Shown one piece after another: positions 21,174 through 47,233 of a stretch of DNA of 64,000 bases. Where the stretch lies: assembly GCF_001306035.1 (NCBI RefSeq), contig NZ_LGCM01000064.1, forward strand, positions 1 to 64,000, given 5' to 3'. Each line of letters opens with the position of its first letter. The first letter of the stretch is position 1. This DNA is from Levilinea saccharolytica (GTDB lineage Bacteria > Chloroflexota > Anaerolineae > Anaerolineales > Anaerolineaceae). The notes beneath the pieces are model-generated. The model had not been told where the DNA came from. It saw only the letters and a list, made by a program, of their open reading frames with translations, and made no database searches. The translations under genes were made by a program, and so were the position numbers.

Positions 21174-21200
21174 GCGAAAGAGATAGGTCAGAGATTGAAG

Positions 21201-23070: not shown

Positions 23071-23095
23071 TTTGAGACCCTTCACCGATCGATTG

Positions 23096-27219: not shown

Positions 27220-27240
27220 CCAAATACGATAACAACAATT

Positions 27241-27272
27241 GGGTGGGTTTGTCAGGTTTGACAAACCCACCC
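27241..27272 (+). promoter_or_regulatory. Perfect 14-bp inverted repeat before the first BMP lipoprotein gene
   Basis: GGGTGGGTTTGTCA (27241-27254) and TGACAAACCCACCC (27259-27272) are perfect complements around the loop GGTT. There is no T-run, so it is not a typical terminator. Its inner part TTGTCA-N4-TGACAA reuses the half-sites of the candidate operator at 17818-17860, so it may be a second regulator site or an mRNA-protecting hairpin. Confidence 0.5.
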
Positions 27273-27298
27273 TGCGAAACCCGGAGTTAGGAGGACCT

Positions 27299-28474
27299 AT
27301 GTCCTTTCGGACGATGTGGCGGTTGGTCAGCGTGGTGTTGGTGGCGGGTCTGGCGTTAACGGCCTGCGGCCCGCGGGTTTCTGTGCCGGATCCCGATCCG
27401 GACAAGTTCAGTGTGGCGATGGTTTTAATCGGCCCGAAGAACGATCAGGGCTGGTCCCAGGCACATTACGAAGGCCTGGAATATGTGGCACAGCAAGTTC
27501 CAGGCATACAGACTGTTTATGTGGAAAACGTCCCGGAAGGGGATGAGTCTGAGCCTGTTATCCGAGCGTTGGCGGCCAAAGGGTTCGATTTGATCTTTGC
27601 AACCTCCTTTGGCTTTATGGATCAGATGGAGCGGGTGGCCAACGATTTTCCGAATACCTATTTTATTCATATTTCCGGAACCAAATCGAACACAACCAAT
27701 TTTGGCAACCTGATGGGCGCGATGGAAACAGCCCTGTATCTGGCGGGCATGCTGGCCGGAGAGCGGGCTGAGATGGACGGCAATTTGCGCCTGGGGTATA
27801 TGGCCACCTACCAGATTGCGGAAGAGCTGCGTTTGGGGAACGCTTTTGCCCTGGGGATGCGCAAGACCTGCTCAGAATGCACCATGGATGTGCGCTGGCT
27901 GAACACCTGGCACGACCCGGTGGTGGAAAAACGCGTGGCGTTGGAAATGTTTGACGCCGGGGCGCAGGTGGTGCTTTCGGGAGCGGATACGCCCGCAGTG
28001 GCCGATGCAGCTGAAATCAAAGGCAAATGGGGCGTGACGTTTGACTGGGTAGGCTCCTGCACCAGCCCCGCCTGTTTGACAGCGCCGTATTGGAACTGGG
28101 GACCGGTGTACAAAGAGGTGGTGGAAGGCTTGCTGAACAAGACCTATAAACCCGGATGGCATTATTTTGACGGCGATTCGGGCGGTTTGGGCTTATACGG
28201 ATTTATGCCTGGGCAGGAGCTGACCGCTGGGGCGGCGGAACTGCCGGATGGGACGCTGAACCAGGTGCGCGCCCTGCTGCGGCAGATGCAGGACGGCGGT
28301 TTTAACCGCTTCAGTGTTTTCCAGGGGCCAATCACCGACAACAAGGGTAATCTGATCGTTGCAGATGGATATAAATTGGAGCAGATTGACCTGGATCAAT
28401 TCCCTGAAATGCAGTTGGGCTGCAAAGTGTGCATGAAGTGGTGGTCGGCGGGCGTGAACGCCGACTGGCCGTGA
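27299..28474 (+). CDS. BMP-family nucleoside/purine-binding lipoprotein (first copy)
   Basis: A 391-aa substrate-binding lipoprotein of the BMP/Med (PnrA-like) family, which delivers purine nucleosides or related compounds to an ABC importer. A signal peptide with lipobox LTAC (Cys23) is followed by the periplasmic-binding-type fold: MVLIGPKNDQGWSQAHYEG, FATSFGFMDQM, YFIHISGTKSNTTNFGN, LMGAMETALYLAGMLAG. Six cysteines occur in three motifs (CSEC, CTSPAC, CKVC) shared with the paralogue at 28760. AGGAGG precedes the ATG at 27299; the frame extends upstream to 27239 but would lose the signal peptide position. Confidence 0.88.
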   Translation: MSFRTMWRLVSVVLVAGLALTACGPRVSVPDPDPDKFSVAMVLIGPKNDQGWSQAHYEGLEYVAQQVPGIQTVYVENVPEGDESEPVIRALAAKGFDLIFATSFGFMDQMERVANDFPNTYFIHISGTKSNTTNFGNLMGAMETALYLAGMLAGERAEMDGNLRLGYMATYQIAEELRLGNAFALGMRKTCSECTMDVRWLNTWHDPVVEKRVALEMFDAGAQVVLSGADTPAVADAAEIKGKWGVTFDWVGSCTSPACLTAPYWNWGPVYKEVVEGLLNKTYKPGWHYFDGDSGGLGLYGFMPGQELTAGAAELPDGTLNQVRALLRQMQDGGFNRFSVFQGPITDNKGNLIVADGYKLEQIDLDQFPEMQLGCKVCMKWWSAGVNADWP

Positions 28475-28676: not shown

Positions 28677-28759
28677 GATCCTGCGATCTGTGTAGTTTGA
28701 GTGAAGTCGCTTATGAGTCCACTGATGTTCCATTCTTAAGTAAGTATGGAGGAGTTGAA

Positions 28760-30073
28760 ATGAAAAAGACAGTGTTGTGGCGCATGATGGCTGCGCTGTT
28801 GGTGGTGATCTTTATGATGACTGCCTGCACGCCCGCGGCCCCTGCCGAACCGGCCGCCCCGGCGGAACCGGCGGCTCCGGCTGAACCGGCTGCCCCGGCC
28901 GAACCTGCGGCCCCTGCGGAACCGGCGGCTCCCGCCGAACCGGCGGCCCCCGCGACGGGCGAACTGCAAATCCCGGACGTGGTGGAAGGCAAATACAACG
29001 CGGCTTTCGTGATGCTGAGTGTTCACGATGACGGTGGTTGGTCTCAGGCGCAGTACGACGGCCTGCGATACGTCATGGAAAAAATGCCGGATGTGAATGC
29101 GGCTTACATTGAGAACGTGGCTGAAGGCGCCGACGCGGAGCAGGTTTTCCGCGCGCTGGCTCGCAAGGGCTTCAATGTGATCTTTGGCGGCTCCTTTGGT
29201 TATATGGACTCCATGGAAGTGGTTGCCCCTGACTTCCCGGATACCTATTTCATCCACATCAGCGGTTACAAATCCAACAGCACCAACTTTGGTAACCTCT
29301 TTGGCGCAATGGAATCGATGAAGTACCTGGCCGGCATGATGGCTGGGTCGCGGGCCAAGATGGACGGCGAGACCAAGATCGGCTACATCGCCACCTTCCC
29401 CATCCCCGAAGAACTGCGCCTGGGCAACGCGTTTGCCATCGGCATGCGCAAGACCTGCCCTGAGTGCACGATGGATGTGCGCTGGATCAACACCTGGCAC
29501 GATCCTGTGATCGAACGCCAGGGTGCCGACTCCCTGTTTGACGCGGGCGCCCACATCGTTTACACCGGCGCCGACACCCCCGCCCCGGCTTTGGCCGCTG
29601 AGGCTCGCCCGGGCAAGTGGGGCATCACCTATGACTGGTCCGGCTCCTGCACCTCGGATTCTTGTCTGACCGCCCCCTATTGGAACTGGGGCCCCGAATT
29701 CGTGCGCGTGATCACCGGTTTGCAAGACGGCACCTACAAAGTGGGCTGGGATTACTTTGATGTGAGCACCGGCGGTCTGGGCATTTACGGCCTGATGGAA
29801 GGCCAGGAAATGACCAAGGGCCAGAAGGAACTGCCCGAAGAAGATATGAAGATGGTGAAAGACACCCTGGCCAAAATGCTGGCGGGCGAATTTACCCGCT
29901 TTGACGTCTTCGCTGGCCCGCTGAAGGACAACGCTGGCAATATCGTCGTTCCGGAAGGCGAGAAGATGTCGCAGTCGGATCTGGATCAGTTCCCTCCGGG
30001 AGCTCCTGGTTTGGAGTGCAAGTACTGCATGCGCTTCTGGGCTGAGGGCGTCACCGCTGAACTGCCTCAGTAG
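28760..30073 (+). CDS. BMP-family nucleoside/purine-binding lipoprotein (second copy)
   Basis: A 437-aa paralogue of the preceding binding protein. Signal peptide and lipobox MTAC are followed by a linker of about 43 residues made of six AAPAEP repeats, then the binding fold (FVMLSVHDDGGWSQAQYDG, YFIHISGYKSNSTNFGN). The cysteine motifs CPEC, CTSDSC and CKYC are at equivalent places to those of the first copy. The long linker would let the domain reach away from the membrane. The ATG at 28760 has GGAGG 7 nt upstream; a frame extension from 28697 would bury the signal peptide. A strong hairpin after the gene probably makes it more abundant than the ABC subunits. Confidence 0.88.
   Translation: MKKTVLWRMMAALLVVIFMMTACTPAAPAEPAAPAEPAAPAEPAAPAEPAAPAEPAAPAEPAAPATGELQIPDVVEGKYNAAFVMLSVHDDGGWSQAQYDGLRYVMEKMPDVNAAYIENVAEGADAEQVFRALARKGFNVIFGGSFGYMDSMEVVAPDFPDTYFIHISGYKSNSTNFGNLFGAMESMKYLAGMMAGSRAKMDGETKIGYIATFPIPEELRLGNAFAIGMRKTCPECTMDVRWINTWHDPVIERQGADSLFDAGAHIVYTGADTPAPALAAEARPGKWGITYDWSGSCTSDSCLTAPYWNWGPEFVRVITGLQDGTYKVGWDYFDVSTGGLGIYGLMEGQEMTKGQKELPEEDMKMVKDTLAKMLAGEFTRFDVFAGPLKDNAGNIVVPEGEKMSQSDLDQFPPGAPGLECKYCMRFWAEGVTAELPQ
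28835..28954 (+). repeat. 18-bp tandem repeat encoding AAPAEP
   Basis: Six full 18-bp units (28835-28942) and one partial unit encode the hexapeptide AAPAEP in the linker of the second BMP lipoprotein. Codon choice differs between units at third positions, so the repeat is older than a recent slippage event. Confidence 0.85.
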
Positions 30074-30088
30074 TCTGTAAGTGTTGTG

Positions 30089-30127
30089 GGGGACAGGCCG
30101 CACGGTTTGGGGCCTGTCCCCTTTCTT
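30089..30127 (+). terminator. Terminator/attenuator between BMP lipoprotein and ABC genes
   Basis: GGGGACAGGCC (30089-30099) and GGCCTGTCCCC (30111-30121) form a perfect 11-bp stem followed by CTTTCTT. The ABC genes continue in the same direction 50 nt on, so partial read-through would give more binding protein than transporter. Confidence 0.75.
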
Positions 30128-30175
30128 CCGGAACACCCGGAGAGAGAGACCCTGGAAGGGTGTAGAGGTAGAGCT

Positions 30176-31744
30176 ATGGATCAGGAGAGCAACGCCAACC
30201 TAGCGGTGAATGTGGTTGAAATGCGCGGGATTGTCAAGCGATTTCCGGGCGTTTTGGCAAATGATCATGTTAATTTTGACCTTCAAAAGGGTGAGATCCA
30301 CGCGCTGCTGGGCGAAAACGGCGCTGGAAAAAGCACCCTGATGAACATTCTGGCGGGTATGTACCGCCCTGATTACGGTACGATCACGGTGAATGGGCAG
30401 CCGGTGAACTTTACTTCCCCAGCTGATGCCATCCGTGCGGGGATCGGCATGATTCACCAACATTTCATGCTGGTTCCTTCGCAAAATGTGACTGAAAACA
30501 TTTTGTTGGGATTGAAAGAACCGCGCTTTATCATGAACATCCGCAAGTACGAAGATGCGGTGGCAGCCCTGGGCGAGCGATACGGGTTAAAAGTGGACCC
30601 GCGTGCGAAGATCTGGCAGCTATCGGTGGGTGAACAGCAGCGCGTTGAAATCTTAAAGGCGCTTTACCGCGGAGCTAACATCTTGATTATGGATGAGCCC
30701 ACGGCGGTGTTGGCGCCGAAAGAAATTGAAGAGCTTTTCATGACCCTGCGCTCGATGACGAAGCAGGAAAAGTCCATCATCTTTATCAGCCATAAACTGC
30801 ACGAAATCACCAGCATTTCCAACCGCGTGACGGTGATGCGCAAGGGCAAAGTGACTTCGCAGGGCATCAGCGTGGATGGGGTGACACGGGCAGATCTGGC
30901 GCGCCTGATGGTGGGGCGCGATGTGGAATTCAATATCGAAAAAGAACCCTGCCAGGTAGGCGGCATGGTGCTGCAAGTGCAGAATGTGCAGGCCATGAAT
31001 GATAAGGGCCTGCCCGCGCTGCGCGGGGTATCGCTGACGGTGAATTCGGGTGAGATTGTGGGCCTGGCGGGCGTGGCGGGCAACGGCCAAAGTGAATTGG
31101 CCGAGGTGATCGCCGGGCTGCGCAAGGTGACGGGCGGCAAGATCTTCGTGCAGGGGGAGGACATCACCAACCAATCGGTCAAGCGCAGCATCACCTCAGG
31201 GGTGTCGCTGGTTCCTGAGGACCGCACCCGCGTAGGCACGGCCCCCAATTTAAGCATGACCGACAACGTGATCATGAAGAATTACAAACAGGCGCCGATT
31301 GGGCGCGGCTGGATGATTAACGCTCCGGCGGCGGATGATTACGCTAAGCGCCTGAAAGACACCTACGATATTATGACCCCCTCCACCCAGACCTCGGTGC
31401 GTTTGATGTCGGGCGGCAATCTGCAAAAGGTCATTTTGGCGCGGGAAATTTCCAGCCAGCCGGCTTTGATGGTGGCGGTGCAGCCGACGCGCGGCCTGGA
31501 TGTGGGCGCCATTGAGGGTGTGCAGCATTTGCTGCTGGAACAGCGTAAAAACTGCGCGGCCATCCTTTTGATCTCTGAAGAACTGGAAGAGCTGCTGGCG
31601 CTCAGCGACCGCATTTACGTCATCTACGAAGGTCAGATTATGGGTGAAGTGACCGACGGCGATATTGAGAAGATCGGCCAGATGATGTTGGGCGCGCGCA
31701 CGGAACAGCTTGAGACCGCGGAAGGAGAAAGCAACCATGACTGA
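30176..31744 (+). CDS. ABC transporter ATP-binding protein (nucleoside/BMP type)
   Basis: A 522-aa protein with two ABC domains in one chain, as in RbsA and the YufO/NupO-type nucleoside importers. Domain 1 has Walker A GENGAGKST (46-54), signature LSVGEQQR and Walker B ILIMDEPTA. Domain 2 has GVAGNGQSEL in place of a Walker A, the usual degenerate form in this family, signature MSGGNLQK and AVQPTRGLDVGA. ATG 30176 follows GAGG at 8 nt. The 3' end overlaps the first permease gene by 8 bp. It energises uptake of the ligand bound by the two BMP lipoproteins. Confidence 0.92.
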   Translation: MDQESNANLAVNVVEMRGIVKRFPGVLANDHVNFDLQKGEIHALLGENGAGKSTLMNILAGMYRPDYGTITVNGQPVNFTSPADAIRAGIGMIHQHFMLVPSQNVTENILLGLKEPRFIMNIRKYEDAVAALGERYGLKVDPRAKIWQLSVGEQQRVEILKALYRGANILIMDEPTAVLAPKEIEELFMTLRSMTKQEKSIIFISHKLHEITSISNRVTVMRKGKVTSQGISVDGVTRADLARLMVGRDVEFNIEKEPCQVGGMVLQVQNVQAMNDKGLPALRGVSLTVNSGEIVGLAGVAGNGQSELAEVIAGLRKVTGGKIFVQGEDITNQSVKRSITSGVSLVPEDRTRVGTAPNLSMTDNVIMKNYKQAPIGRGWMINAPAADDYAKRLKDTYDIMTPSTQTSVRLMSGGNLQKVILAREISSQPALMVAVQPTRGLDVGAIEGVQHLLLEQRKNCAAILLISEELEELLALSDRIYVIYEGQIMGEVTDGDIEKIGQMMLGARTEQLETAEGESNHD

Positions 31745-32870
31745 TTCACCATCCCCGAAACCCGCGGGACAAAACTGGTTTCCCTATCGCTTTAAAGTTG
31801 AACCGCGCCTGAAAGAACCCCCAGCCTGGTTTTCACCGATGCTGTCATTGGCGGCGGTGGTGGTTTCGCTGTTTATCGGAGCCTTCATCATCCATCTGGC
31901 GGGCGGCGACCCCTGGAAAACCTATGTGCACATTGCCAAGTCGTCCTTCGGCAGCGTGGGCGTGATTTCCGATACGCTGGTGAAAGCCACTCCGTTGATC
32001 CTGGTGGGTCTGGCCTGTTCCATTGCCTTCCGCATGCGCATTTGGAACATCGGCGCGGAGGGGCAGTTCTTTCTGGGCGCGTGGGGAGCCAGCCTGATCG
32101 TGCTTTTGCCGGTGCTGCCAGAGGACGCGCCGCAGTGGCTCTTCATCCTCACCACGATGGCTTCGGGCATTCTCTTTGGGGCGCTGTGGGGTCTCATTCC
32201 TGCGGTGCTCAAGGCCCGCTTCAATGTCAATGAGATCATCTCAACCCTGATGATGAACTACATTGCCATCTCGTGGAACAACTATTTTATCTATGCGGTG
32301 TGGTCGGACGGCGGTTTTCAGATGACGCGCATGTTCCAGCGCAACGCCTGGCTGCCGCGCCTGGCCGACTATGCCAAAGAGATCCCCGCCTTCCGCGGAC
32401 TGACCACGCATTTGGGCCTGGTGTTTGCTCTCCTGGCGGCGGTGGTGGTGTACTTGATTTTGACCAAAAGCCAGTGGGGGTATGAAATTCGCCTGATCGG
32501 CGATAACCCCAACGCGGCCCACTACGCCGGCATTTCGATCAACAAAAACATCATCCTGGTGATGCTGCTTTCGGGCGGCCTGGCGGGTTTGGCAGGTATG
32601 TCAGAGATCACAGGTGTGGTTCACCGGCTTCAAGGAGCCATTTCGCCAGGCTACGGTTTTACCGGCATCATCATTGCCTGGCTGGCCAAGCTGAACCCCT
32701 TTGGTGTGATCATCGCTTCCATCCTGTTCGGCGCTTTGATCCTGGCGGGACGTGAGATGCAGCCGCACGGCATACCCACCATGATCCAGGGGGTGATCAT
32801 GGTGCTGTTGATCGCGAGCGATTTCTTTACCCGGTATACAATTCGCATCACTCGCCGCATGGAGGAGTAA
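31737..32870 (+). CDS. ABC transporter permease 1 (nucleoside/BMP type)
   Basis: A 377-aa inner-membrane permease of the BPD_transp_2 family with about nine membrane segments. Family motifs include LVGLACSIAFRMRIWNIGAEGQFFLGAWGA, NEIISTLMMNYIA, and RLIGDNPNAAHYAGIS followed by GGLAGLAGMSEI (the coupling region facing the ATPase). It overlaps the ATPase gene by 8 bp and is followed 1 bp later by the second permease, the standard order for this transporter class. A GAAGGAGA ribosome binding site lies before the ATG. Confidence 0.92.
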   Translation: MTDSPSPKPAGQNWFPYRFKVEPRLKEPPAWFSPMLSLAAVVVSLFIGAFIIHLAGGDPWKTYVHIAKSSFGSVGVISDTLVKATPLILVGLACSIAFRMRIWNIGAEGQFFLGAWGASLIVLLPVLPEDAPQWLFILTTMASGILFGALWGLIPAVLKARFNVNEIISTLMMNYIAISWNNYFIYAVWSDGGFQMTRMFQRNAWLPRLADYAKEIPAFRGLTTHLGLVFALLAAVVVYLILTKSQWGYEIRLIGDNPNAAHYAGISINKNIILVMLLSGGLAGLAGMSEITGVVHRLQGAISPGYGFTGIIIAWLAKLNPFGVIIASILFGALILAGREMQPHGIPTMIQGVIMVLLIASDFFTRYTIRITRRMEE

Positions 32871-32871
32871 G

Positions 32872-33840
32872 ATGGACCTGATCATCGTATTATCCGCGGG
32901 GGTCGCCACGGGAACAGCGCTGCTGTTTGCCACCGTGGGAGAAATCTTCGCCGAACGGTCTGGGGTGATGAACCTGGGTGTGGAAGGCATGATGCTGCTG
33001 GGGGCCATGACGGCCTACAGTGTGTCAGCTTCTAGCGGCTCGCCCTGGTTGGGCGCCCTGGCGGGCATGTTGGCAGCCGGTTTGATCAGTCAGATCCACG
33101 CCTACATTTCCATCACGTTGAAGGCGGATCAGGTGGTGAGCGGCCTGGCGTTGAACTTTTTGGCTTCGGGTGTGAGCCTGGTGTTGGGCGAAGGTCTGAA
33201 CAGCCTGAAGGGTGTGCCGGCTCTGCCGTTTTTCAGCATTCCGCTGCTGGTGAATATCCCCATTCTGGGCGATATCCTTTTCAAAAATCAAAGCGTGCTG
33301 GTCTATATTGGTTACCTGCTGTTCCCGCTGGCCTGGTATTTTATCAACCGCACCCGCCCCGGGCTGCATTTACGCGCGGTGGGTGAATACCCGTCCGCGG
33401 CCGATTCGCAGGGCATTAACGTGATTGGCCTGCGCTATTTCTATACCTTTGTGGGCGGTCTGCTGGCGGGGCTGGGCGGGGCAGCCATCAGCCTGGCGAT
33501 TTCGCCGGGTTGGTTCAGCGAGAAGACCTCGGCTGGCCTGGGCTGGATCGCGGTGGGTCTGGTGATCTTTGCCCAATGGGATCCCATCCGCGCGGCGGGC
33601 GGCTCCTACATCTTCGGCGCGCTGCGGCGCTTGATCCTGGACATTCAGGGGCCGACCACCATCCTGGGGCTGCGCAATCCTTTCTACTACAACCCCTATT
33701 ACGGATTTTTCCTGCAAATGCTCCCCTACGCCTTCACGGTGGTTGTGCTGGTTCTGGGCTCGCGCGAGGCCATTCGCAAGCGCATGGGCACACCGGCGGC
33801 TTTGGGGTTACCCTATGTCCGCGGGCAACGCGGTTTGTAA
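32872..33840 (+). CDS. ABC transporter permease 2 (nucleoside/BMP type)
   Basis: A 322-aa second permease of the same BPD_transp_2 family, expected to form a heterodimer with permease 1. Seen: ATVGEIFAERSGVMNLGVEGMMLLGAM at the N-terminus, LKADQVVSGLALNFLASG, RAVGEYPSAADSQGINV and GLGGAAISLAISPGW. GGAGGAG within the end of permease 1 serves as its ribosome binding site. It completes the binding protein-ATPase-permease set starting at 27299. Confidence 0.92.
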   Translation: MDLIIVLSAGVATGTALLFATVGEIFAERSGVMNLGVEGMMLLGAMTAYSVSASSGSPWLGALAGMLAAGLISQIHAYISITLKADQVVSGLALNFLASGVSLVLGEGLNSLKGVPALPFFSIPLLVNIPILGDILFKNQSVLVYIGYLLFPLAWYFINRTRPGLHLRAVGEYPSAADSQGINVIGLRYFYTFVGGLLAGLGGAAISLAISPGWFSEKTSAGLGWIAVGLVIFAQWDPIRAAGGSYIFGALRRLILDIQGPTTILGLRNPFYYNPYYGFFLQMLPYAFTVVVLVLGSREAIRKRMGTPAALGLPYVRGQRGL

Positions 33841-33876
33841 ACCTTGCTGTTAACTTTTATGAAAGGGCATGGATCT

Positions 33877-35133
33877 ATGGAAAAGACGTTCGTTGGTTAC
33901 CGCTGTTCATTGTGCGGCAAGGAGTACGGCCCTGAGGACGTGCAGTACACCTGCCCGGCTGACGGCGGCAATTTGGATGTGGTTTTAGATTACGAAGGTA
34001 TTCGCAAAAAATATCAGGTGGAAGACATCACCACGCGCACGGATGCTTCGCTGTGGCGCTACTTGCCGCTGCTGCCGGTGACAGATCCGGGCGGCGAGGG
34101 CACGCCTCTGCGCGCCGCGGGTTGGACGCCGCTGTATCAGCCGCCGGCCCTGGCCAAGACGCTGGGCATGCGCCAGCTGTGGGTGAAGGACGAAGGCCGC
34201 AACCCGACCGCCTCGTTCAAAGACCGCGCCAGCTCGGTGGTGGTGGCGCGCGCGCGCCAGATTGGGGCCGAAGTGGTGGTGACGGCTTCCACCGGCAACG
34301 CGGGTGCGGCCCTGGCGGGCATGTCGGCGGCGGTGGGTCAGCGGGCGGTCATCTTTGCCCCGCGCACGGCCCCCCCGGCCAAGGTGGCGCAGCTGTTGGT
34401 GTACGGCGCTCAGGTGATCCTGGTGGACGGCAATTATGACTCGGCCTTCGACCTGACCATCGAGGCGGCTAACGCTTACGGCTGGTACTGCCGCAATACG
34501 GGCTACAACCCCTTCACGGCGGAAGGCAAGAAAACCGCGGCTTTTGAAATTTGGGAAAATGTGATTTTGCCCCTGGGCGACAGCACCCAGCCTTTGAACG
34601 TGTTTGTGTCGGTGGGCGACGGCAACATCATCTCCGGCATTCACAAAGGGTTCAAGGACCTCATGGCCCTGGGCTGGCTGAAGGTGATGCCGCGCATTTT
34701 CGGCATTCAGTCCGACAAATCGGCGGCGGTGGCCAACGCGTTCTTCGCGGGCACGGAGACGATTGTGCCGGTGGCGGCCACAACCCTGGCCGACAGCATT
34801 TCGGTGGATCTGCCCCGCGACGGTGTGCGCGCGGTGCGCGCCGCCACGCAAACCGGCGGGGCTTACATCACCGTGCCGGATGAGGAGATCATTTCTGCCA
34901 TTGCCGATCTGGGCAAAGTGGGCATTTTTGCCGAACCGGCGGGTTCAACGGCCTACGCCGGCTTGAAGAAAGCCCTGAAAGAGGGCGTGATTGGGGCGGA
35001 TGAGCCCACGCTGGTGCTGAACACGGGCAACGGTATGAAAGACATCCGCGCGGCGATGGCGGCTGTGAAGGAAGCTCCGATTATCGAGCCGACCTTTGCG
35101 GCGCTTGAAAAGCATCTGGCGGCCAACCGCTAG
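33877..35133 (+). CDS. thrC: Threonine synthase-family PLP enzyme
   Basis: A 418-aa fold-type-II PLP enzyme. An N-terminal zinc-ribbon-like patch (CSLC at 10-13, YTCPADGG with Cys26) precedes PTASFKDRASS with the PLP lysine Lys115, the phosphate-binding STGNAGAAL and a late FAEPAGSTAYAGL. This matches threonine synthase, which makes threonine from O-phosphohomoserine by elimination and hydration. No other threonine gene is adjacent. In this catabolic setting it could act on a related beta- or gamma-substituted amino acid, but that is speculation. ATG 33877 with AGGG 9 nt upstream is preferred over 33859. Confidence 0.8.
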   Translation: MEKTFVGYRCSLCGKEYGPEDVQYTCPADGGNLDVVLDYEGIRKKYQVEDITTRTDASLWRYLPLLPVTDPGGEGTPLRAAGWTPLYQPPALAKTLGMRQLWVKDEGRNPTASFKDRASSVVVARARQIGAEVVVTASTGNAGAALAGMSAAVGQRAVIFAPRTAPPAKVAQLLVYGAQVILVDGNYDSAFDLTIEAANAYGWYCRNTGYNPFTAEGKKTAAFEIWENVILPLGDSTQPLNVFVSVGDGNIISGIHKGFKDLMALGWLKVMPRIFGIQSDKSAAVANAFFAGTETIVPVAATTLADSISVDLPRDGVRAVRAATQTGGAYITVPDEEIISAIADLGKVGIFAEPAGSTAYAGLKKALKEGVIGADEPTLVLNTGNGMKDIRAAMAAVKEAPIIEPTFAALEKHLAANR

Positions 35134-35169: not shown

Positions 35170-36111
35170 ATGCAGCCTACTTATTCGATTATTGCGCCAG
35201 TGTATAACGAACGCGAAAGCCTGCCAGTTCTGTTGGACCGGCTGCAGGGCGTGATGGATACCACCGGCGAGTCCTGGGAACTGATTTTGGTCGATGATGG
35301 TTCTACCGACGGTTCGACCGAGATCATCCGCGCCTTGGGGGAGCAGGATGAGCGCGTGCGGCCGGTGATTTTTGCGCGCAACTTTGGCCACCAAATTGCT
35401 GTGACGGCTGGGCTGGATTACAGCCGCGGGCAGGCGGTGGTGATTATTGACGCGGATTTGCAGGACCCTCCGGAGGTGATTCTCGAACTGATTGCCAAAT
35501 GGAAAGAAGGCTTTGAAGTGGTGTATGCGGTGCGCGGCGAGCGCGAGGGTGAAACCTGGTTTAAGAAAACCACCGCATCCCTGTTTTACCGCCTGATTTA
35601 CCGCATTACGGATGTCAAAATTCCGCTGGATACGGGCGATTTTCGCCTGATGGACCGCAAGGTGGTGAACGTGATGAACCAGATGCGCGAACGCCACCGC
35701 TTTTTGCGGGGGATGTCCTCGTGGGTGGGCTTCCGCCAGGTGGGTGTCACCTACCGGCGGGCGGCGCGCTTCGCGGGGGTCACCAAATACCCGTTCAGCA
35801 AGATGCTGCGGCTGGCGCTGAACGCCATCACCAGCTTCTCGTATTTCCCCCTGCAATTGGCCACCTATATGGGCTTTTTTGCCGCGGGGCTGAGCATTTT
35901 GACCATCCCGGTGATTGTGGTGATGCGCTTGATCGGGCAGCAGGCATTTTTTGGACAGGCCACCACCCTGGTTGCGGTGCTGCTTTTGGGTGGGGTTCAG
36001 CTCATCAGTCTGGGCATTTTGGGTGAGTATTTGGGCCGCGTATACGATGAAGTCAAGGGCCGCCCGCTGTACATTGTCAGCCAGGGGCCTTCTGATGAAG
36101 ATAAACAATAA
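35170..36111 (+). CDS. GT2-family glycosyltransferase (DPM1/GtrB-like)
   Basis: A 313-aa protein with an N-terminal GT-A domain and two C-terminal membrane helices (about 230-252 and 264-290). Motifs: [43 protein letters not shown] and [14 protein letters not shown] (DAD metal site). Homologues transfer a sugar from a nucleotide donor to polyprenyl phosphate in the membrane, for cell-surface glycans. Like the membrane protein at 23096 it has no evident tie to purine catabolism, although it lies between two PLP-enzyme genes with short gaps. AGGG precedes the ATG. Confidence 0.88.
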
Positions 36112-36147: not shown

Positions 36148-37617
36148 ATGACGAAGATTGACTTAACAGTACATCCTGACCGGCTGGAACGGGCTGTGAA
36201 GCGCGCGCGGGAACGCAATATTATCGTTCCCACCTACGCGCAGATGAAGAACCCTGCTCTGGTTCCGGACTCGGTGAAGGCTGAGCTGGCGAATATTGGT
36301 TTGTGGGATGTTCACCCGCGCAACCTGTTCCGCATCACCTGGAAGAACGAGCCCAAGGCCAAGGGCGGCGCTTTTGGCGGCCCCAACTTCCTGGAGCTGC
36401 CCTCCAGCCTGACGGGCACCCCGGCGCGCATCATCGCCATGGTGGGCAAGTGGTTCCCCACCGGCGCGCACAAAGTGGGCGCGGCTTTCAGCTGCCTGGT
36501 TCCCCGCCTGGTGACCGGCCAGTATGACCCCACCACGCAGAAGGCTGTGTGGCCCTCCACCGGTAACTACTGCCGCGGCGGCGCGTATGACTCGGCCCTC
36601 TTGGGCTGCCAGTCCATCGCCATTCTGCCGGAAGGCATGAGCAAGGAACGCTTTGAGTGGCTGTCGAAGATCGCCGGCGAAGTCATCGCCACCCCGGGCA
36701 CCGAATCGAATGTGAAAGAAATCTTCGACAAGTGCTGGGAACTGCGCAAATCGGGCCAGGACCTGATGATCTTCAACCAGTTCGAAGAGTTCGGCAACTA
36801 TCTGTGGCACTATGAAGTCACCGGTCACGCGATTGAAGACGCGCTGCACCAGGTGATGGGGCCCAACGACCAGTTCCGCGGTGTGGCTTTGACCACCGGC
36901 TCGGCGGGGACGATTGCCTGCGGCGATTACCTCAAGCAGAAATTCCCCAACAGCAAAATCTGTGCCAGCGAAGCGCTGCAGTGCCCGACCCTGCTGAACA
37001 ACGGCTTCGGCGCGCACCGCATCGAAGGCATCGGCGACAAGCACGTGCCGTGGATTCACAACATCAAGAATACCGACATGGTCGTGGCCATTGACGACAT
37101 GTCGGTGGTGAACGTGATGCGCCTGTTCAATGAACCCGCGGGCCAGGAATATCTGCGCAGCAAAGGCGTTCCGGCGGAAATCGTCAGCCAACTGCACCTG
37201 TTGGGCTTCTCCGGCATCGCCAACATGCTCTCGGCGATCAAGATGGCCAAGTACTATGAAATGACCGAGAATGACGTCCTGGTGGTGATCTTCACCGACT
37301 CGATGGAACTGTACGCCACCCGCATCGAAGAATACCGCAAGGACTTCGGCCCGTTCACCGCTTCGGACGCGGCGGAGGCTTTTGCCCGCGATCTGTTCGG
37401 CGAGACTACTGATCACCTGATCGAACTGACCTACGCAGAACGCAAGCGCGTTCACAACCTCAAGTACTACACCTGGGTTGAGCAGCAGGGCCGCAGCTAC
37501 GAAGAAATTCAGGCGCAGTGGTACGAACCCACCTACTGGACGGACGTTCAGGGCCAGGTGGAAGAGATTGATGCGCTGATTAAGGAATTCAACGCCCGCG
37601 TCGGCTTGATGAAGTAA
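36148..37617 (+). CDS. Fold-type-II PLP-dependent enzyme, substrate unknown
   Basis: A 489-aa enzyme of the TrpB/cysteine-synthase superfamily. FPTGAHKVGAA carries the likely PLP lysine Lys109, comparable with the GAHK/GSHK of tryptophan synthase beta. STGNYCRGGAYDSALLG (about 144-160) should bind the cofactor phosphate or carboxylate, and TTGSAGTIACGDYL is a Gly-rich loop. About 70 N-terminal and 100 C-terminal residues lie outside the common core. It is not recognisably YgeX (diaminopropionate ammonia-lyase), the PLP enzyme usual in purine clusters, but occupies a similar position and could replace it. AGGAGA is 9 nt before the ATG, and a strong terminator follows. Confidence 0.78.
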   Translation: MTKIDLTVHPDRLERAVKRARERNIIVPTYAQMKNPALVPDSVKAELANIGLWDVHPRNLFRITWKNEPKAKGGAFGGPNFLELPSSLTGTPARIIAMVGKWFPTGAHKVGAAFSCLVPRLVTGQYDPTTQKAVWPSTGNYCRGGAYDSALLGCQSIAILPEGMSKERFEWLSKIAGEVIATPGTESNVKEIFDKCWELRKSGQDLMIFNQFEEFGNYLWHYEVTGHAIEDALHQVMGPNDQFRGVALTTGSAGTIACGDYLKQKFPNSKICASEALQCPTLLNNGFGAHRIEGIGDKHVPWIHNIKNTDMVVAIDDMSVVNVMRLFNEPAGQEYLRSKGVPAEIVSQLHLLGFSGIANMLSAIKMAKYYEMTENDVLVVIFTDSMELYATRIEEYRKDFGPFTASDAAEAFARDLFGETTDHLIELTYAERKRVHNLKYYTWVEQQGRSYEEIQAQWYEPTYWTDVQGQVEEIDALIKEFNARVGLMK

Positions 37618-37644: not shown

Positions 37645-37680
37645 TGCGAGAGGCCGCATGCGGCCTCTCGCATTTTTATT
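37645..37680 (+). terminator. Strong intrinsic terminator ending the main purine operon
   Basis: TGCGAGAGGCCGC (37645-37657) pairs perfectly with GCGGCCTCTCGCA (37660-37672) and is followed by TTTTTATT. It ends the plus-strand series of genes that began at 17947 and precedes the aldo/keto reductase gene. Confidence 0.88.
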
Positions 37681-37711
37681 GGAGCGGGAAAACCGGGTGA
37701 GGAGGCGAAGG

Positions 37712-38779: not shown

Positions 38780-41038
38780 TTAAGCTGGACGGATCAGCAT
38801 CTCAGGGCGGATGGGGGCGGCATGGACGCGCACACCCGTGGCGGCAAACACGGCATTGGCCACGGCGGCGGCGGTGGGCGCGGTGACAGCTTCGCCGATG
38901 CCCTTGGCGCCGTAGGGGCCGCTGCTTTCCGGCTGTTCCAGCAGGATGATCTTGACCTCGCCGGGGATATCCATCGCCGTGGGCAGCACATATTCAGCCA
39001 GCCCGTCCACCCACTGCCCGTTGGCTTTCAGGATCATATCTTCCGACAGGGCAAAGCCCATGCCCATCGCCAGCCCGCCTTCCACCTGACCTTCCAGCGC
39101 GGCGCGGTTGATCACGCGGCCCACGTCGTGGACGGCGGTGGCGTGGGTGACTTCTACGCTGCCCAGCTCACTGTCCACCTCCACGCGCATGACCTGCGCG
39201 CCCAGGCAGAAGAGCACGTGCGGCATGCCGATTCCCAGGTCGGTGGGGATTTCGGGGCCGTAAGGGAAGGAGAAGGTGGCTGTGCTGTGCAGGGCGCGGC
39301 CTTCTTCGGCCAGGCGGCTGGTGATTTCAGCGGCGGGGATGGGGGGCAGGTGGGGCTGATCCAACCGCAGCAGTTGGCCGCCGCGGTATTCCAGCTGATC
39401 GGGCTGCACGCCCAACAGGCGGGCTCCTTCCTCTTTCAGCATGTCGATCAGGCGCACGGCGGCCAGCATGGAGGAATTGCCCACCATGTAAGTCATGCGC
39501 GAGGCGCAGGTGACGCCGCCGTCTGGGGAGAGGAGGGTGTTGATGGGGGCCACCTCCACCTGGGACAGGTCTACGCCCAGCGCCTCGGCGGTGATCTGGG
39601 CGGCGGCGATGTTTAACCCCTGCCCCAGGTCGGGCGCGCCGATGCGCAGCAGCACCTGACCGTCTGGCTGCCATTCCAGGCGGTTGGTGCTGTCATCCGG
39701 CACGCCCCAGCCCAGGCCCATGGTTTGCAGGGCCATCGCCATGCCGACCCCCGCTTTTTTGCCAGGGGAGGCGGGCAGGGCTTTCAGACGCGCCACCTCC
39801 TGCGCGGCGGTTTCCAGAGCCAGGCTGGTGCTTTCGGCCTGGTTGACGCGCACGCGGGTGAAGTTGAAGTCACCAGGGCGCCAGATGTTGCGGCGGCGCA
39901 CCTCCAGCGGGTCGAGACCCAGGCGGTGGGCCAGCGTGTCCACCAGGCTTTCGATGGCGAAATTGGCCTGGGGCGCGCCAAAGCCGCGCATGGCCCCGGC
40001 GATAGGGGCGTTGGTGTAAACCACAAAGGTCTCAGAGCGCACGTGGGGAATGCGGTACGGCCCGGCGGCCACTTCGGTGAGCAGTTGGCCCACGGCCGGC
40101 CCGTAGGAAGCGTAAGCGCCGGTATCCAGGTGGGTGGTGATCTCTACGGCGGTGATGGTGCCGTCTTGTTTGGCTCCCAGGCGGTAATGCAGCTGCCCGG
40201 AGTGTCGCTTGGGGTGAGCCAGCATGGATTCTTCGCGCGAATTGACCAGGCGCACCGCCCCGCGGGTGCAGTAGGCGGCCAGCCCGGCCAGCACGGGCAT
40301 GTTGGCGTCTTCCTTACCGCCAAAGGCGCCGCCAATGGCGGCCACGCACACCTGCACCTGCTCTTCGGGCAGATTCACAGCGGCGGCGATATGGTGGCGG
40401 TCGTGGAAGGGCTTCTGCGAAGAAACCCACACGGTGAGCGTGCCGTTGGGGTTGAGCACGGCCTGTGAGGCTTCGGTCTCCAGATAAGCGGGGTACACGC
40501 GCGGGACGTGGAAGGTCTCTTCCAGGATGAGATCGGCCTGGGCTAACCCCTGGGCGGTGTCGCCGTGGCAGACGGTGAAATGGCTGAGGACGTTGCCGTT
40601 CTCGTGAACCTGGGGCGCATCCGGCTGGGCGGCGGCGAAGGGATCAATCACCGCTGGCAGCGGTTCGTAGGTGACCTGAACGCGTTTGTGGGCTTCATCG
40701 GCAGCCTGGCGGGTTTTGGCCACCACGATCGCCACCGGCTCGCCCATGAAGCGCACCTTGTCGCTGGCCAATACAGGCCGATCGGGCAGCAGATCGCCGT
40801 AGATTTTGGCGCCAGGGATATCGGCGTGGGTGAGCACGGCGATGACGCCGGGGACGGCCAGGGCCTCGGCGGTTTCAATGCGCAGGATGCGGGCGTGCAG
40901 GTGGGGGCTGCGCACAATGCGCCCGTGGGTCAGGTTGGGCAGGTCGGTGTCGGCCACGTACTGCGCCTGTCCGGTGACTTTCTCCAGGGCGTCGCGGCGC
41001 GGGTAAGATTTTCCCAGGTGCAGAGGGGTATCAGTCAT
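38780..41038 (-). CDS. xdhA: Xanthine dehydrogenase-type molybdenum hydroxylase, large subunit
   Basis: A 752-aa molybdopterin-binding subunit of the xanthine oxidase family, which hydroxylates purines or other N-heterocycles. Motifs: KVTGQAQYVADTDLP at the N-terminus, GGAFGGKEDANM, AMRGFGAPQANFAIES, a central DLGQGLNIAAAQI and the C-terminal GAKGIGEAVTAPT with the catalytic glutamate. The true start at 41038 overlaps the FeS-subunit gene by 8 bp; the open frame extending to 41329 is read-through across that gene. Whether it carries the labile selenium ligand known from some purine hydroxylases cannot be told from sequence. Confidence 0.9.
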   Translation of the reverse strand: MTDTPLHLGKSYPRRDALEKVTGQAQYVADTDLPNLTHGRIVRSPHLHARILRIETAEALAVPGVIAVLTHADIPGAKIYGDLLPDRPVLASDKVRFMGEPVAIVVAKTRQAADEAHKRVQVTYEPLPAVIDPFAAAQPDAPQVHENGNVLSHFTVCHGDTAQGLAQADLILEETFHVPRVYPAYLETEASQAVLNPNGTLTVWVSSQKPFHDRHHIAAAVNLPEEQVQVCVAAIGGAFGGKEDANMPVLAGLAAYCTRGAVRLVNSREESMLAHPKRHSGQLHYRLGAKQDGTITAVEITTHLDTGAYASYGPAVGQLLTEVAAGPYRIPHVRSETFVVYTNAPIAGAMRGFGAPQANFAIESLVDTLAHRLGLDPLEVRRRNIWRPGDFNFTRVRVNQAESTSLALETAAQEVARLKALPASPGKKAGVGMAMALQTMGLGWGVPDDSTNRLEWQPDGQVLLRIGAPDLGQGLNIAAAQITAEALGVDLSQVEVAPINTLLSPDGGVTCASRMTYMVGNSSMLAAVRLIDMLKEEGARLLGVQPDQLEYRGGQLLRLDQPHLPPIPAAEITSRLAEEGRALHSTATFSFPYGPEIPTDLGIGMPHVLFCLGAQVMRVEVDSELGSVEVTHATAVHDVGRVINRAALEGQVEGGLAMGMGFALSEDMILKANGQWVDGLAEYVLPTAMDIPGEVKIILLEQPESSGPYGAKGIGEAVTAPTAAAVANAVFAATGVRVHAAPIRPEMLIRPA

Positions 41039-41507
41039 GGCGCAGCTCCTCGGCGGCCATCTGCACCGCCTGGATGATCTTGGTGTAGCCGGTGCAGCGG
41101 CAGATGTTGCCCGCCAGCGCCTGACGGATATCTTCTTCCTGCGGCTGGGGGTTGTGGTCCAGCAGAGCTTTGGAGGCCATGACCATACCGGGGATGCAGA
41201 AACCGCACTGCACCGCGCCTGCATCCACGAAGGCTTGTTGGATGGGGTGCAGCTGGCCGGATTTGGACAGCCCTTCGATGGTCTCCACTGTGCAGCCGTC
41301 GGCCTGGCCCGCCAACACCAGACAGGCATTGACGGCGGCCCCGTTCATCAGCACGGTGCAGGCCCCACATTCGCCGGATTCGCAGCCGTTTTTGGCACCG
41401 GTGAGGCCTAAATCTTCGCGCAGGATGTCCAGCAGGGTGCGGTTGGGCAGGGTGATGAGGGTGTGCGTGGTTTCGTTAACCGTGAGGGTGATTTCGATGG
41501 GTTTCAT
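41031..41507 (-). CDS. xdhC: Molybdenum hydroxylase [2Fe-2S] subunit
   Basis: A 158-aa electron-transfer subunit with two [2Fe-2S] clusters. The plant-ferredoxin-type cluster is bound by Cys42, Cys47, Cys50 and Cys62 (CESGECGAC...C); the second by Cys101, Cys104, Cys136 and Cys138 (CGFC...CRC). Length and cysteine spacing are standard. It overlaps the FAD-subunit gene by 4 bp upstream and the large-subunit gene by 8 bp downstream, so the three subunits are translationally coupled. Confidence 0.95.
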   Translation of the reverse strand: MKPIEITLTVNETTHTLITLPNRTLLDILREDLGLTGAKNGCESGECGACTVLMNGAAVNACLVLAGQADGCTVETIEGLSKSGQLHPIQQAFVDAGAVQCGFCIPGMVMASKALLDHNPQPQEEDIRQALAGNICRCTGYTKIIQAVQMAAEELRHD

Positions 41508-42385
41508 ACGGTCCTCGCTTGGGCGGCTTCCTGGGCCTGGCTGAGGGCAGCCTGCAGGGCGCGCACCGCCAAAACGCCCGCGGCGCGGCGGCGGTAGGCG
41601 CGGCTGGCGCGCACATCATCAATGGGGCTGATTTCGACGGCGATCTGTTGGGCCGCAGACTGCCACAGTTCGGCGGAAGGAAGTTGACCGTGGAGCAGGT
41701 TCTCGGTCTGAGGGCAGCGGATGACGGTGGGGGCTGAGGCGCCCACAGCCACCCGCACCTGCTCCAGACGGCCTTCGGGGCTGAGGCGCACAGCGGCGGC
41801 GGCGCTGACGATGGCGATGGTCATGCCGCGGCGCGGGCCGATTTTGAGAAAGGCGCTGCCCAGGTCTTCGGCGGGCAGCTCAAAGCGCACGGATTGGATG
41901 AACTCACCGCGCTGCAGGGCGGTTTGACCGGGGCCGAGCAGGAATTGCGCCAGGGGCAAGCTGCGCGAGCCTTTAGCGCTGGTGAGGGTGACCTCGGCGT
42001 TGTAGATCATCAAGGGGGGGACGGCATCCGCGGCGGGTGAGGCATTGGCCAGGTTGCCGCCCAGCGTGGCGCGCTGGCGGGTCATGGGCGCGCCCACCCA
42101 CTGCGCGGCCTGGGTGAGTGCCGGGGCGGCGGCGCGCAGGGTGGGGTGGGCCTGAATGGCGGCGAAGGTGGTCAGCGCGCCAATTTCCACCTGGGTGTTG
42201 TGGATGCGGATGCCTTCCAGCTCGCTGACTCGGCTGATATCCACCAGCAGTGCGGGCTGCAGGCGGCCGGTGTGCATTTGGGGAAGAACATCCGTGCCGC
42301 CCGCGACGATTTTGGCATGGGGCTGCTGCAGCGCCTGACAAAGCTCGTCCAGGTGAGCGGGCCGGAGGTAGTTAAAGGTTTGCAT
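41504..42385 (-). CDS. xdhB: Molybdenum hydroxylase FAD-binding subunit
   Basis: A 293-aa subunit of the CoxM/XdhB FAD family that passes electrons from the FeS subunit to NAD or another acceptor. FAD-binding motifs are KIVAGGTDVLPQM (about 25-37) and TLGGNLANASPAADAVPPL (about 106-124). The C-terminal CO_deh_flav_C region (about 180-285) is complete. GGGAG lies upstream of the ATG at 42385. It lies 45 nt downstream of the second adenine deaminase gene in the same operon. Confidence 0.94.
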   Translation of the reverse strand: MQTFNYLRPAHLDELCQALQQPHAKIVAGGTDVLPQMHTGRLQPALLVDISRVSELEGIRIHNTQVEIGALTTFAAIQAHPTLRAAAPALTQAAQWVGAPMTRQRATLGGNLANASPAADAVPPLMIYNAEVTLTSAKGSRSLPLAQFLLGPGQTALQRGEFIQSVRFELPAEDLGSAFLKIGPRRGMTIAIVSAAAAVRLSPEGRLEQVRVAVGASAPTVIRCPQTENLLHGQLPSAELWQSAAQQIAVEISPIDDVRASRAYRRRAAGVLAVRALQAALSQAQEAAQARTV

Positions 42386-44309: not shown

Positions 44310-44879
44310 GTGAGCTATTCCCCCCCTACTTCAGCGATCATCCTGGTGGCGGTGGTGCCCTCGCCGCGCGACCTTGAGATTGCGCGGGTGTTGGGCTGGT
44401 ACCGCATTCCCCTGCGCTCCGCTCCCAAGGTGGTGGACGTGGATTACCTGGCCTTTTACCAGACGGGCGCGTTTGGCGAGGCGGAACGCTGGAAGATTCA
44501 CTGGTGCGCAGAGGTGCGCGGGCACGAGCTGACCACCCGTGCGGACTTGTTCCGCAGTGAGCCGCAGCATCCGCGCGCGCGTGAGGAATATTATAAATTG
44601 CAGCTCGGCCCGCTGCAGGCCTTACCCGCGCCCATCGCGGCCGGGCGGTGGCGGCGCATCACATTTTTATATACCACGGGCGAGCTGATGGCGCAGGCCC
44701 AGGAGATTCGCGATCTGGTGGTGCGTTCAGAGGAGCGCGATGTGTTGTGGCGGGCGCTGCGCGAGCGGGCGCTGAGCGCCAGCCGCTACCGCGCTGAGGA
44801 TTTGCCAGAGATCCCTATAGAACCGGCTTTATTAGCCATGTTGGGGGGCTGGGGAGGTGTGGATGGAAGCACAAAATAA
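44310..44879 (+). CDS. Conserved hypothetical protein
   Basis: A 189-aa soluble protein starting at a GTG with AAGG 8 nt upstream. I do not recognise a named family. The text ILVAVVPSPRDLEIARVLGWYRIPL and KVVDVDYLAFYQTGAF, then an HWCAEVRGHEL strand and GRWRRITFLYTTGE, gives a compact alpha/beta domain of a kind I associate with Chloroflexota hypothetical proteins. A nuclease-like role is conceivable but unsupported. It overlaps the next gene by 17 bp, which implies coupled expression. It is divergent from the ade-xdh operon. Confidence 0.7.
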   Translation: MSYSPPTSAIILVAVVPSPRDLEIARVLGWYRIPLRSAPKVVDVDYLAFYQTGAFGEAERWKIHWCAEVRGHELTTRADLFRSEPQHPRAREEYYKLQLGPLQALPAPIAAGRWRRITFLYTTGELMAQAQEIRDLVVRSEERDVLWRALRERALSASRYRAEDLPEIPIEPALLAMLGGWGGVDGSTK

Positions 44880-45811: not shown

Positions 45812-47233
45812 ATGGCTTTGCTGATCCGTTCGGGGACGTTGGTGACCGCGGCAGAGACTTTTCAGGCGGATATCCTGGTGGAGGGCGGTAAGATCGCCCA
45901 AATTGGCCCGCATTTGACCGCCCCCGCCGACGCCGAGGTGGTGGACGCCAGCGGCATGCTGGTTTTGCCCGGTGGGGTGGATGCGCATGTGCATTTGGAC
46001 CTGCCCATGTTTGGCACGGTTTCTTCAGACGACCACTACACCGGCATGAAGGCCGCGGCTTTTGGCGGAACCACCACGGTGATTGACTTCATCTCGCAGG
46101 ACCGCAGCCCGCTGCTGGCGAATGTGGCCGCGCTGAAGGCCAAGGCCGAAGCCAAGGCGGCGGTGGATTACAGCTTTCATATGAACATCACCCGCCTGGA
46201 TGCGCAGGTGGAAGCCGAGATCCCAAGCCTGGTGGAGGAAGGCATTACCAGCATTAAGGTGTTCACGGCTTACAACCAACGGCTGCGCTTGCAGGACGGC
46301 GAAATTTTCCGGGTGATGCGTATCGCCGGGCAGCACGGTATTCTCACCATGCTGCACGCCGAAAATGGGGATGTGATTGATATTTTGGTGGCCGAGGCGC
46401 TTGCGGCCGGCCACACGGCGCCCGAATGGCACGCGCATACCCGCCCGGCCTGGGGCGCGGTGGAGGCAGTGCTGCGCGGGGCGGCTTTGGCTACCCAGGC
46501 GCAGGCGCCTCTGTACGTGGTGCACATGAACGTGGCGGGTGAGGTGGATCAGCTGGAATATGCCCGCCAGAGCGGCCTGCCGGTGATGGGCGAGACCTGC
46601 CCGCAGTACCTGTTCTTTAACGAGAGCCATTTGAGCCGCCCAGACGGGGCCAAATGGATCTGTTCGCCGCCCATGCGCCTGGCGGAAGACAACGAAAGGC
46701 TGTGGGAAGGGCTGGAGAACCGCATTTTGCAGGTGGTGGCTACGGATCACTGCCCCTTCTTCTACGACGGTTCGCGTCCGATCCAATATGAAGGCCAGCC
46801 GGTGGCCATTCCTGGTAAGGAACTGGGCGCGGGTGATTTCACCAAGATCCCCAACGGCTTGCCCGGCGTGGGCGACCGCATGCCGGTGATGTGGACAGCC
46901 GGGGTGGGCAGCGGCCGTCTGACCCCCAACGAGTTTGTGGCCCTGACCTGCACCAACCCGGCCAAGATCTTTGGTATGTACCCGCAAAAGGGCACGCTGA
47001 TGCCGGGCGCAGACGCGGATATTGCCCTGTGGGACCCGCAGCGCAAGGTGCGCTATGGGGTGGCGATGGCCCACCACCGCACAGATTACAACCTGTATGA
47101 GGGCTGGGAACTGACTGGTTACCCGGTGAAGGTTTTCCTGCGCGGCCAGCTGATTGTGGATGAGGGCCGTTGGAACGGTCAGCCCGGCATGGGCCGCTTT
47201 GTCCGCCGCCAGCCTTTCGCGGGGATGATGTAG
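45812..47233 (+). CDS. hydA: Dihydropyrimidinase / hydantoinase
   Basis: A 473-aa cyclic amidohydrolase that opens dihydropyrimidine, hydantoin or related imide rings to N-carbamoyl amino acids. The binuclear metal site is complete: VDAHVHLDLPM (HxH), ITSIKVFTAY with the lysine that becomes carboxylated, LHAENGD, VVHMN and VATDHCPF with the catalytic Asp. Length is standard. Dihydropyrimidinase homologues (HyuA) accompany SsnA and YgeW in known purine/urate-degradation clusters, so its product could feed the carbamoyltransferases here. GGAGGAGG precedes the ATG at 45812. Confidence 0.92.
   Translation: MALLIRSGTLVTAAETFQADILVEGGKIAQIGPHLTAPADAEVVDASGMLVLPGGVDAHVHLDLPMFGTVSSDDHYTGMKAAAFGGTTTVIDFISQDRSPLLANVAALKAKAEAKAAVDYSFHMNITRLDAQVEAEIPSLVEEGITSIKVFTAYNQRLRLQDGEIFRVMRIAGQHGILTMLHAENGDVIDILVAEALAAGHTAPEWHAHTRPAWGAVEAVLRGAALATQAQAPLYVVHMNVAGEVDQLEYARQSGLPVMGETCPQYLFFNESHLSRPDGAKWICSPPMRLAEDNERLWEGLENRILQVVATDHCPFFYDGSRPIQYEGQPVAIPGKELGAGDFTKIPNGLPGVGDRMPVMWTAGVGSGRLTPNEFVALTCTNPAKIFGMYPQKGTLMPGADADIALWDPQRKVRYGVAMAHHRTDYNLYEGWELTGYPVKVFLRGQLIVDEGRWNGQPGMGRFVRRQPFAGMM

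Follow-up and report, generated by a model that had tools for sequence, protein, structure and literature searches.

PLP489, a fold-type-II PLP enzyme of the OASS/CBS branch, as a candidate for the terminal step of anaerobic urate breakdown in Chloroflexota

The enzyme PLP489, encoded in the analyzed 64,000-nucleotide stretch of Levilinea saccharolytica DNA (the window), very probably belongs to the anaerobic reductive urate (purine) pathway of Chloroflexota. Since its gene lies amid urate-breakdown genes and YgeX is missing there, PLP489 is probably responsible for the last ammonia-releasing step or for one adjoining it. It is given even odds of catalyzing the YgeX step itself, namely the conversion of diaminopropionate (DAP) to pyruvate and ammonia, either alone or shared with a ThrC-like enzyme encoded nearby.

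The biochemistry of anaerobic urate breakdown was established as late as 2025, for gut bacteria, YgeX being the last enzyme. The window features bearing on this pathway are the following (coordinates, strand, description):

17947..19335, plus strand, 8-oxoguanine deaminase (687 bits, cut-off 532)
19380..21173, plus strand, adenine deaminase
21195..21941, plus strand, GntR-family regulator
22067..23017, plus strand, second carbamoyltransferase, ATCase-like, in the slot occupied by YgeY in other genomes
25201..26181, plus strand, OTC/YgeW-like carbamoyltransferase (35% identity to E. coli YgeW)
26272..27219, plus strand, carbamate kinase, YqeA-like (arcC model, 386 bits, cut-off 358)
27239..28474, plus strand, BMP/PnrA-type substrate-binding protein, second copy (profile)
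28697..30073, plus strand, BMP/PnrA-type substrate-binding protein (profile)
30086..31744, plus strand, ABC transporter ATP-binding protein (profile)
31710..32870, plus strand, ABC permease, BPD_transp_2 (profile)
32872..33840, plus strand, ABC permease, BPD_transp_2 (profile)
33844..35133, plus strand, ThrC429, ThrC-like PF00291 enzyme, co-occurring partner of PLP489 (profile, neighborhood, co-occurrence)
35170..36111, plus strand, GT2 glycosyltransferase between both PLP genes (profile, neighborhood)
36148..37617, plus strand, PLP489, fold-type-II PLP enzyme of the OASS/CBS branch (ORF, profile, alignment, tree, model)
38780..41329, minus strand, xanthine dehydrogenase-family molybdenum subunit
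41504..42385, minus strand, XdhB-type FAD subunit
44320..44879 (approximate), plus strand, conserved part of the small protein c1, which follows PLP489 in most Anaerolineales
45812..47233, plus strand, dihydropyrimidinase/hydantoinase in the HyuA role (39% identity to E. coli HyuA)

The PLP489 ORF starts with ATG and encodes 489 amino acids including a GAHK motif, as described in the initial annotation; Lys109 of this motif, encoded at 36472-36474, is predicted to form the Schiff base, and the codon of a further residue of interest, Asp297, occupies positions 37036-37038. The genes are tightly spaced on the same strand, the ThrC-like gene ending at 35133, GT2 spanning 35170-36111 and PLP489 starting at 36148, so that PLP489 indeed comes after the ThrC-like enzyme, as had been claimed, but not directly adjacent to it. 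Nor is it the last gene of the operon, since a co-directional aldo/keto reductase ORF (37658-38704) starts 41 bp past its end, and in relatives a small gene and a hydantoinase gene follow. The TTG start of ThrC429 is uncertain, homology beginning at about residue 11-15.

Other genes of the region deserve mention in their own right. GT2, an odd partner for a catabolic operon, shows approximately 62-80% identity across Anaerolineaceae; its position between the ThrC-like gene and PLP489 is kept in this family, and it is missing there in several others. The c1 protein of about 190-210 amino acids (also at L107:11489-12124), whose window form matched no Pfam or NCBIfam model, is encoded after PLP489 in most Anaerolineales, those free of the purine cluster included. 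Likewise, no Pfam or NCBIfam match was obtained for a 671-aa ORF (23072-25087) located between both carbamoyltransferase genes in some relatives and gone from there in others.

The assignment of PLP489 to fold type II was confirmed by its match to Pfam PF00291 (51.6 bits, cut-off 35). Its best NCBIfam match was cysK (TIGR01139) with 89 bits, which is below the cut-off of 351, and the model for DAP ammonia-lyase (PRK08206/TIGR03528) reached 14.5 bits (cut-off 276). All NCBIfam matches were sub-threshold, no TrpB model being among them, and neither NCBIfam nor Pfam assigned this protein to a specific family. Among solved structures, the closest sequences were those of OASS and CBS. An AlphaFold2 model built from 48 relatives (pLDDT 81, pTM 0.86, weak at residues 276-303) matched OASS, beta-cyanoalanine synthase, and CBS with Z 26-27 over approximately 300 residues, and O-ureido-L-serine synthase (3x43/3x44) with Z 26; none of the 50 fold matches listed was a TrpB or YgeX chain, which excludes nothing. 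In a tree of 29 proteins, ten of them divergent PLP489 relatives, these ten grouped together (100/100) within the CysK branch (100/98) and apart from YgeX and the ThrC-like proteins. As several other tree rows were long-branched, only the CysK-branch, YgeX, and ThrC-like placements were used; the TrpB-like protein of L. saccharolytica fell outside the CysK/PLP489 branch (100/98), its long branch leaving its place unsure. PLP489 is thus a distinct, well-supported branch on the OASS/CBS side of fold type II. The profile search and structure prediction that had been proposed as a check of the initial annotation were thereby carried out, with cysK as the best profile and OASS and beta-cyanoalanine synthase as the best folds. 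The earlier statement that the protein resembles neither YgeX, cysteine synthase, nor TrpB was borne out for YgeX and TrpB by profile scores and tree, but not for cysteine synthase, given the top match to cysK, the OASS fold, and the tree placement. An open literature search returned no published description of the enzyme, an absence that proves nothing.

Lys109 does not vary among the 48 relatives or among the ten divergent members of the family; in the alignment, it coincides with the lysine that forms the Schiff base in CysK, YgeX, and ThrC. The glycine-rich phosphate loop GSAGT (251-255) aligns with that of CysK and is invariant in the ten divergent members, as are STGN, QF, GIGDK, and Ser355. 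Asp297 is invariant in the PLP489 family and replaced by Ala in the CysK of L. saccharolytica; judged from the alignment, it may correspond to the Asp mutated in PDB 5b55 (Fn1055 D232N), which is only a possible lead.

The L. saccharolytica genome encodes 11 PF00291 proteins, including threonine synthases, CysK, OrtB, a TrpB-like and a D-cysteine desulfhydrase-like protein, and YgeX. PLP489 was ruled out as the genome's cysteine synthase because the genome also encodes a true CysK (490 bits, cut-off 351). Its identity as an OrtB-like thiolase subunit was unsupported, a separate OrtB scoring over its cut-off and PLP489 being without match to that model. A true YgeX (518 bits, cut-off 276) is encoded on contig C21 amid unrelated genes and is therefore unlinked to the purine genes in this genome.

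Gene neighborhoods were compared across Chloroflexota, families being denoted by the anonymous labels f1-f60; gene calls in high-GC loci were made with a simple codon-position score and cross-checked by tblastn. In most Anaerolineaceae loci among L031-L110, the operon comprises, in this order, the YgeW/OTC-like gene, carbamate kinase, the BMP-type ABC transporter, the ThrC-like gene, GT2, PLP489, the small gene, and the hydantoinase gene, with 8-oxoguanine deaminase, adenine deaminase, and the GntR regulator upstream of the YgeW/OTC-like gene. PLP489 orthologs of families f43 and f31 (45-50% identity) are accompanied by varying subsets of SsnA, YgfK/UacX, XDH, YgeW-like, carbamate kinase, ATCase-like, and other ThrC-like genes, represented by the orders SsnA-YgfK-HyuA-ThrC456-PLP489 (L170) and CK-YgeW-ATC-ThrC456-PLP489-XDH-SsnA-UacX (L177). 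In f11 (L189 and L190), the order is SsnA-CK-YgeW-like-YgeY-F420-type reductase-PLP489-ABC, SsnA and YgeY scoring over their cut-offs, and in f60 (L180), PLP489 is located between a ThrC-like and a YgeY-like gene. Altogether, the PLP489 family is colocated with SsnA plus YgfK, UacX, or the F420-type reductase, and partly with YgeW-like genes, at L170, L172, L173, L177, L189, and L190. The tie to purine breakdown drawn in the initial annotation was hence upheld by the ring-opening and decarbamoylation genes with which PLP489 is associated, namely the YgeW-like, carbamate kinase, and hydantoinase genes nearby and SsnA, YgfK/UacX, and YgeY in relatives, and DAP or a related compound remains the likely substrate region.

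In L. saccharolytica itself, XdhD, an F420-type reductase, and SsnA (521 bits, cut-off 444) are encoded over cut-off on contig C23 and not on the window contig. This locus (L199, G000:C23:50000-69000), in which the reductase is of the LLM type, also contains more XDH subunits and genes that look F420-metabolic, as judged by their sequence start alone and not by any model. An F420-linked Chloroflexota variant of the pathway has been noted (PMC12507026), and the C23 genes match it.

With respect to distribution, a PLP489 homolog was found, mostly once per genome, in 129 of 151 relatives (E < 1e-20), far beyond chance, and in 56 of 350 genomes of the phylum (E < 1e-40). Leptolinea tardivitalis and Longilinea arvoryzae are examples of cultured relatives with the gene. 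Among the relatives, PLP489 and ThrC429 occurred together in 126 genomes (17 neither, 3 PLP489 only, 5 ThrC429 only) and PLP489 and SsnA in 107 (17 neither, 22 PLP489 only, 5 SsnA only). A lack of co-occurrence with ygeW-type genes had been named as an argument against the proposed role; PLP489 and a YgeW-like gene were found together in 113 of the 151 relatives (15 neither, 16 PLP489 only, 7 YgeW-like only) and in 48 of the 350 phylum genomes (281 neither, 8 and 13 discordant). Shared ancestry inflates both these counts and their Fisher values, and the latter were given no weight in judging strength. Greater weight falls on the recurrent clustering in differing gene orders and on the joint absence of PLP489, ThrC429, and the YgeW-like gene from the near-complete genomes G126 and G387, whose family otherwise has all three. 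Association between PLP489 and YgeX was not significant among the 151 relatives (p 0.2). True YgeX was detected in 22 of these relatives and in one of 21 cluster genomes checked, the latter (G362) being without PLP489 and ThrC429. Since most genomes are MAGs, these absences are provisional; the searches were also capped. In the published survey, the terminal enzyme was counted at the level of Pfam PF00291 (PMC12507026), so YgeX was not told from PLP489, ThrC-like, or CysK-like enzymes.

Whether DAP is formed upstream of PLP489 depends on the removal of both ureido groups. YgeY was found in none of the eight f43/f31 PLP489-carrying genomes checked (E < 1e-50), which would suit an enzyme of the preceding step, a C-N lyase that releases urea from the mono-carbamoyl compound albizziin and bypasses decarbamoylation of the beta nitrogen; the fold match to O-ureido-L-serine synthase (Z 26), with its ureido-substituted serine, points in the same direction. 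Where YgeY is missing, however, its slot is taken by a second carbamoyltransferase, which no fewer than five clusters of f43/f31 (L173, L175, L176, L177, and L179) also contain, so that DAP can still form, and YgeY and PLP489 occur together in the f11 clusters L189 and L190. Direct action on albizziin, which was demoted from main hypothesis after this second carbamoyltransferase had been found, is accordingly regarded as quite improbable.

The same slot, before the YgeW-like gene, was inspected in 40 Anaerolineaceae loci (L204-L243), where it was occupied by an ATCase-like gene in 23 cases and by YgeY in 15, never by both, two contigs being too short. These loci came from two lists for which the detection of YgeY was the main criterion, and the YgeY counts are therefore not a frequency; the second carbamoyltransferase was not a selection criterion for the YgeY-less list. 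Exclusion is not absolute, as the f12 locus L191 carries both genes, and the YgeY-like protein of L. saccharolytica (contig C45) is borderline, one model scoring just over and the other under its cut-off. The alternation suggests a double-phosphorolysis variant acting on both ureido groups, in which the second carbamoyltransferase would do the job of YgeY and DAP would still be formed.

A further question is how PLP489 relates to the second PLP enzyme. YgeX is equally active on both DAP isomers (PMC12507026), and the intermediates of the pathway, whose configuration is described as unsettled, may be R (PMC12990295). PLP489 and the ThrC-like enzyme might form a stereospecific pair, one acting on D-DAP and the other on L-DAP, or one epimerizing and the other eliminating, and jointly cover the range of the bispecific YgeX, as would fit their co-occurrence and their adjacent or near positions in several families. 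This arrangement is deemed unlikely, as clusters with a single enzyme exist (L189 without ThrC429, L181 of genome G229 with ThrC429 and without PLP489) and stereospecificity cannot be read directly from the fold. ThrC429 could be the sole lyase, a partner for the other stereoisomer, or an enzyme of a different step. A CysK-like enzyme often stands in where PLP489 is missing: in clusters of f40, f37, and f27 that are devoid of PLP489, a CysK-like gene is located beside ThrC429 or the YgeW-like gene (L182, L183, L185, and L186). By score, its products would be called cysteine synthases or lie just under the cut-off, and they have Cys279, Asp297, and Asn359 in common with PLP489, these positions being different in the CysK of L. 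saccharolytica.

The OASS branch is mainly known for beta-replacement reactions. PLP489 could accordingly catalyze beta-replacement in the metabolism of sulfur or amino acids (synthesis of cysteine, cystathionine, or related compounds), its position among purine genes being an inherited neighborhood; its branch and fold are compatible with this, TauE/SafE sulfite-exporter genes are present near the Rhizobium and Bosea homologs, and in many f12 genomes PLP489 resides away from the pathway genes beside mmdA-type carboxylase genes. This explanation appears improbable in view of the proper CysK of the genome, the clustering that recurs in differing orders in several families, and the joint losses in G126 and G387. 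Linkage to the cluster persists within f12 in G304, G209, and G217. A role unrelated to purines altogether, considered for this near-core gene from its f12 location beside mmdA, biotin-carrier, and PolA genes, was likewise weakened by the clusters of other families and the joint absences. On a plasmid of Bosea vaviloviae, a YgeX homolog split between two ORFs (L112:20656-21915) was observed near the PLP489 homolog and RidA and M20 hydrolase genes; the RidA-family gene fits aminoacrylate release and is weak evidence.

Returning to PLP489 as the enzyme of the YgeX step, we infer its substrate, elimination chemistry, stereochemistry, and division of labor with the ThrC-like enzyme as follows. The upstream steps would open both rings to yield 2,3-diureidopropionate, from which the carbamoyltransferase(s) with carbamate kinase, or YgeY, would remove both ureido groups, leaving 2,3-diaminopropionate. 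DAP would then replace Lys109 of PLP489 in the Schiff base (external aldimine), and ammonia would be eliminated from its beta carbon (C3). The resulting aminoacrylate would decay to pyruvate and a second ammonia, so that PLP489, alone or with its ThrC-like neighbor, would fill the place of E. coli YgeX. Against this reading stand the YgeX on contig C21, the separate location of PLP489 in f12, and the prevalence of beta-replacement in the OASS branch; moreover, the second PLP enzyme that is usually present (ThrC429 or ThrC456) could be the DAP lyase itself. Tentatively, a Chloroflexota variant of the urate pathway may be pictured that features F420-linked reduction, two carbamoyltransferases, and, instead of YgeX, the OASS-branch lyase PLP489 plus a ThrC-like enzyme, the two perhaps being specific for one isomer (D or L) each. 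As both ureido groups would be removed by the two carbamoyltransferases in that variant, each could yield ATP.

A large environmental phylum seems to run the anaerobic urate pathway mostly without YgeX. If confirmed, these results would provide a function for a hitherto unassigned near-core enzyme family of Anaerolineales and would mean that the terminal urate step has passed to another branch within the PLP superfamily; genome surveys based on PF00291 or ygeX could then count the pathway wrongly. A version with higher energy yield is also suggested by the alternation of YgeY and the second carbamoyltransferase.

Among the closest known counterparts is E. coli YgeX, for which the reductive urate pathway to DAP and the YgeX reaction are biochemically established (PMC12507026). 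Both enzymes are fold-type-II PLP proteins with YgeW, YqeA, HyuA, SsnA, and YgeY-type neighbors and are expected at the pathway end; however, PLP489 belongs to another superfamily branch, reaches just 14.5 bits (cut-off 276) with the model for DAP ammonia-lyase, has STGNYCRG instead of the YgeX loop TDGNHGRG, and carries extra N- and C-terminal segments. With CysK/OASS and CBS, it shares the core fold (Z ~26-27, ~300 residues), the branch (100/98), and the PLP-site motifs QF..N..H..TG, GIG, and GxS, while differing by an identity of only ~20-25%, a long stem branch, and extensions of ~40 (N-terminal) and 85 residues (C-terminal) beyond the matched core; compared with CysK, it has Asp297 for Ala and the substrate loop STGN(Y/F). 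The cluster-borne CysK-like enzymes of f40, f37, and f27 occur in the same type of neighborhood, form the nearest tree branch with modest sister support (90/87), and share the three residues named above, but are of CysK-like length, score near the CysK cut-off, and are without the PLP489 extensions. O-ureido-L-serine synthase, finally, resembles PLP489 in its OASS-branch fold and its ureido-amino-acid chemistry, a match at the level of fold, whereas it is biosynthetic and belongs to another pathway.
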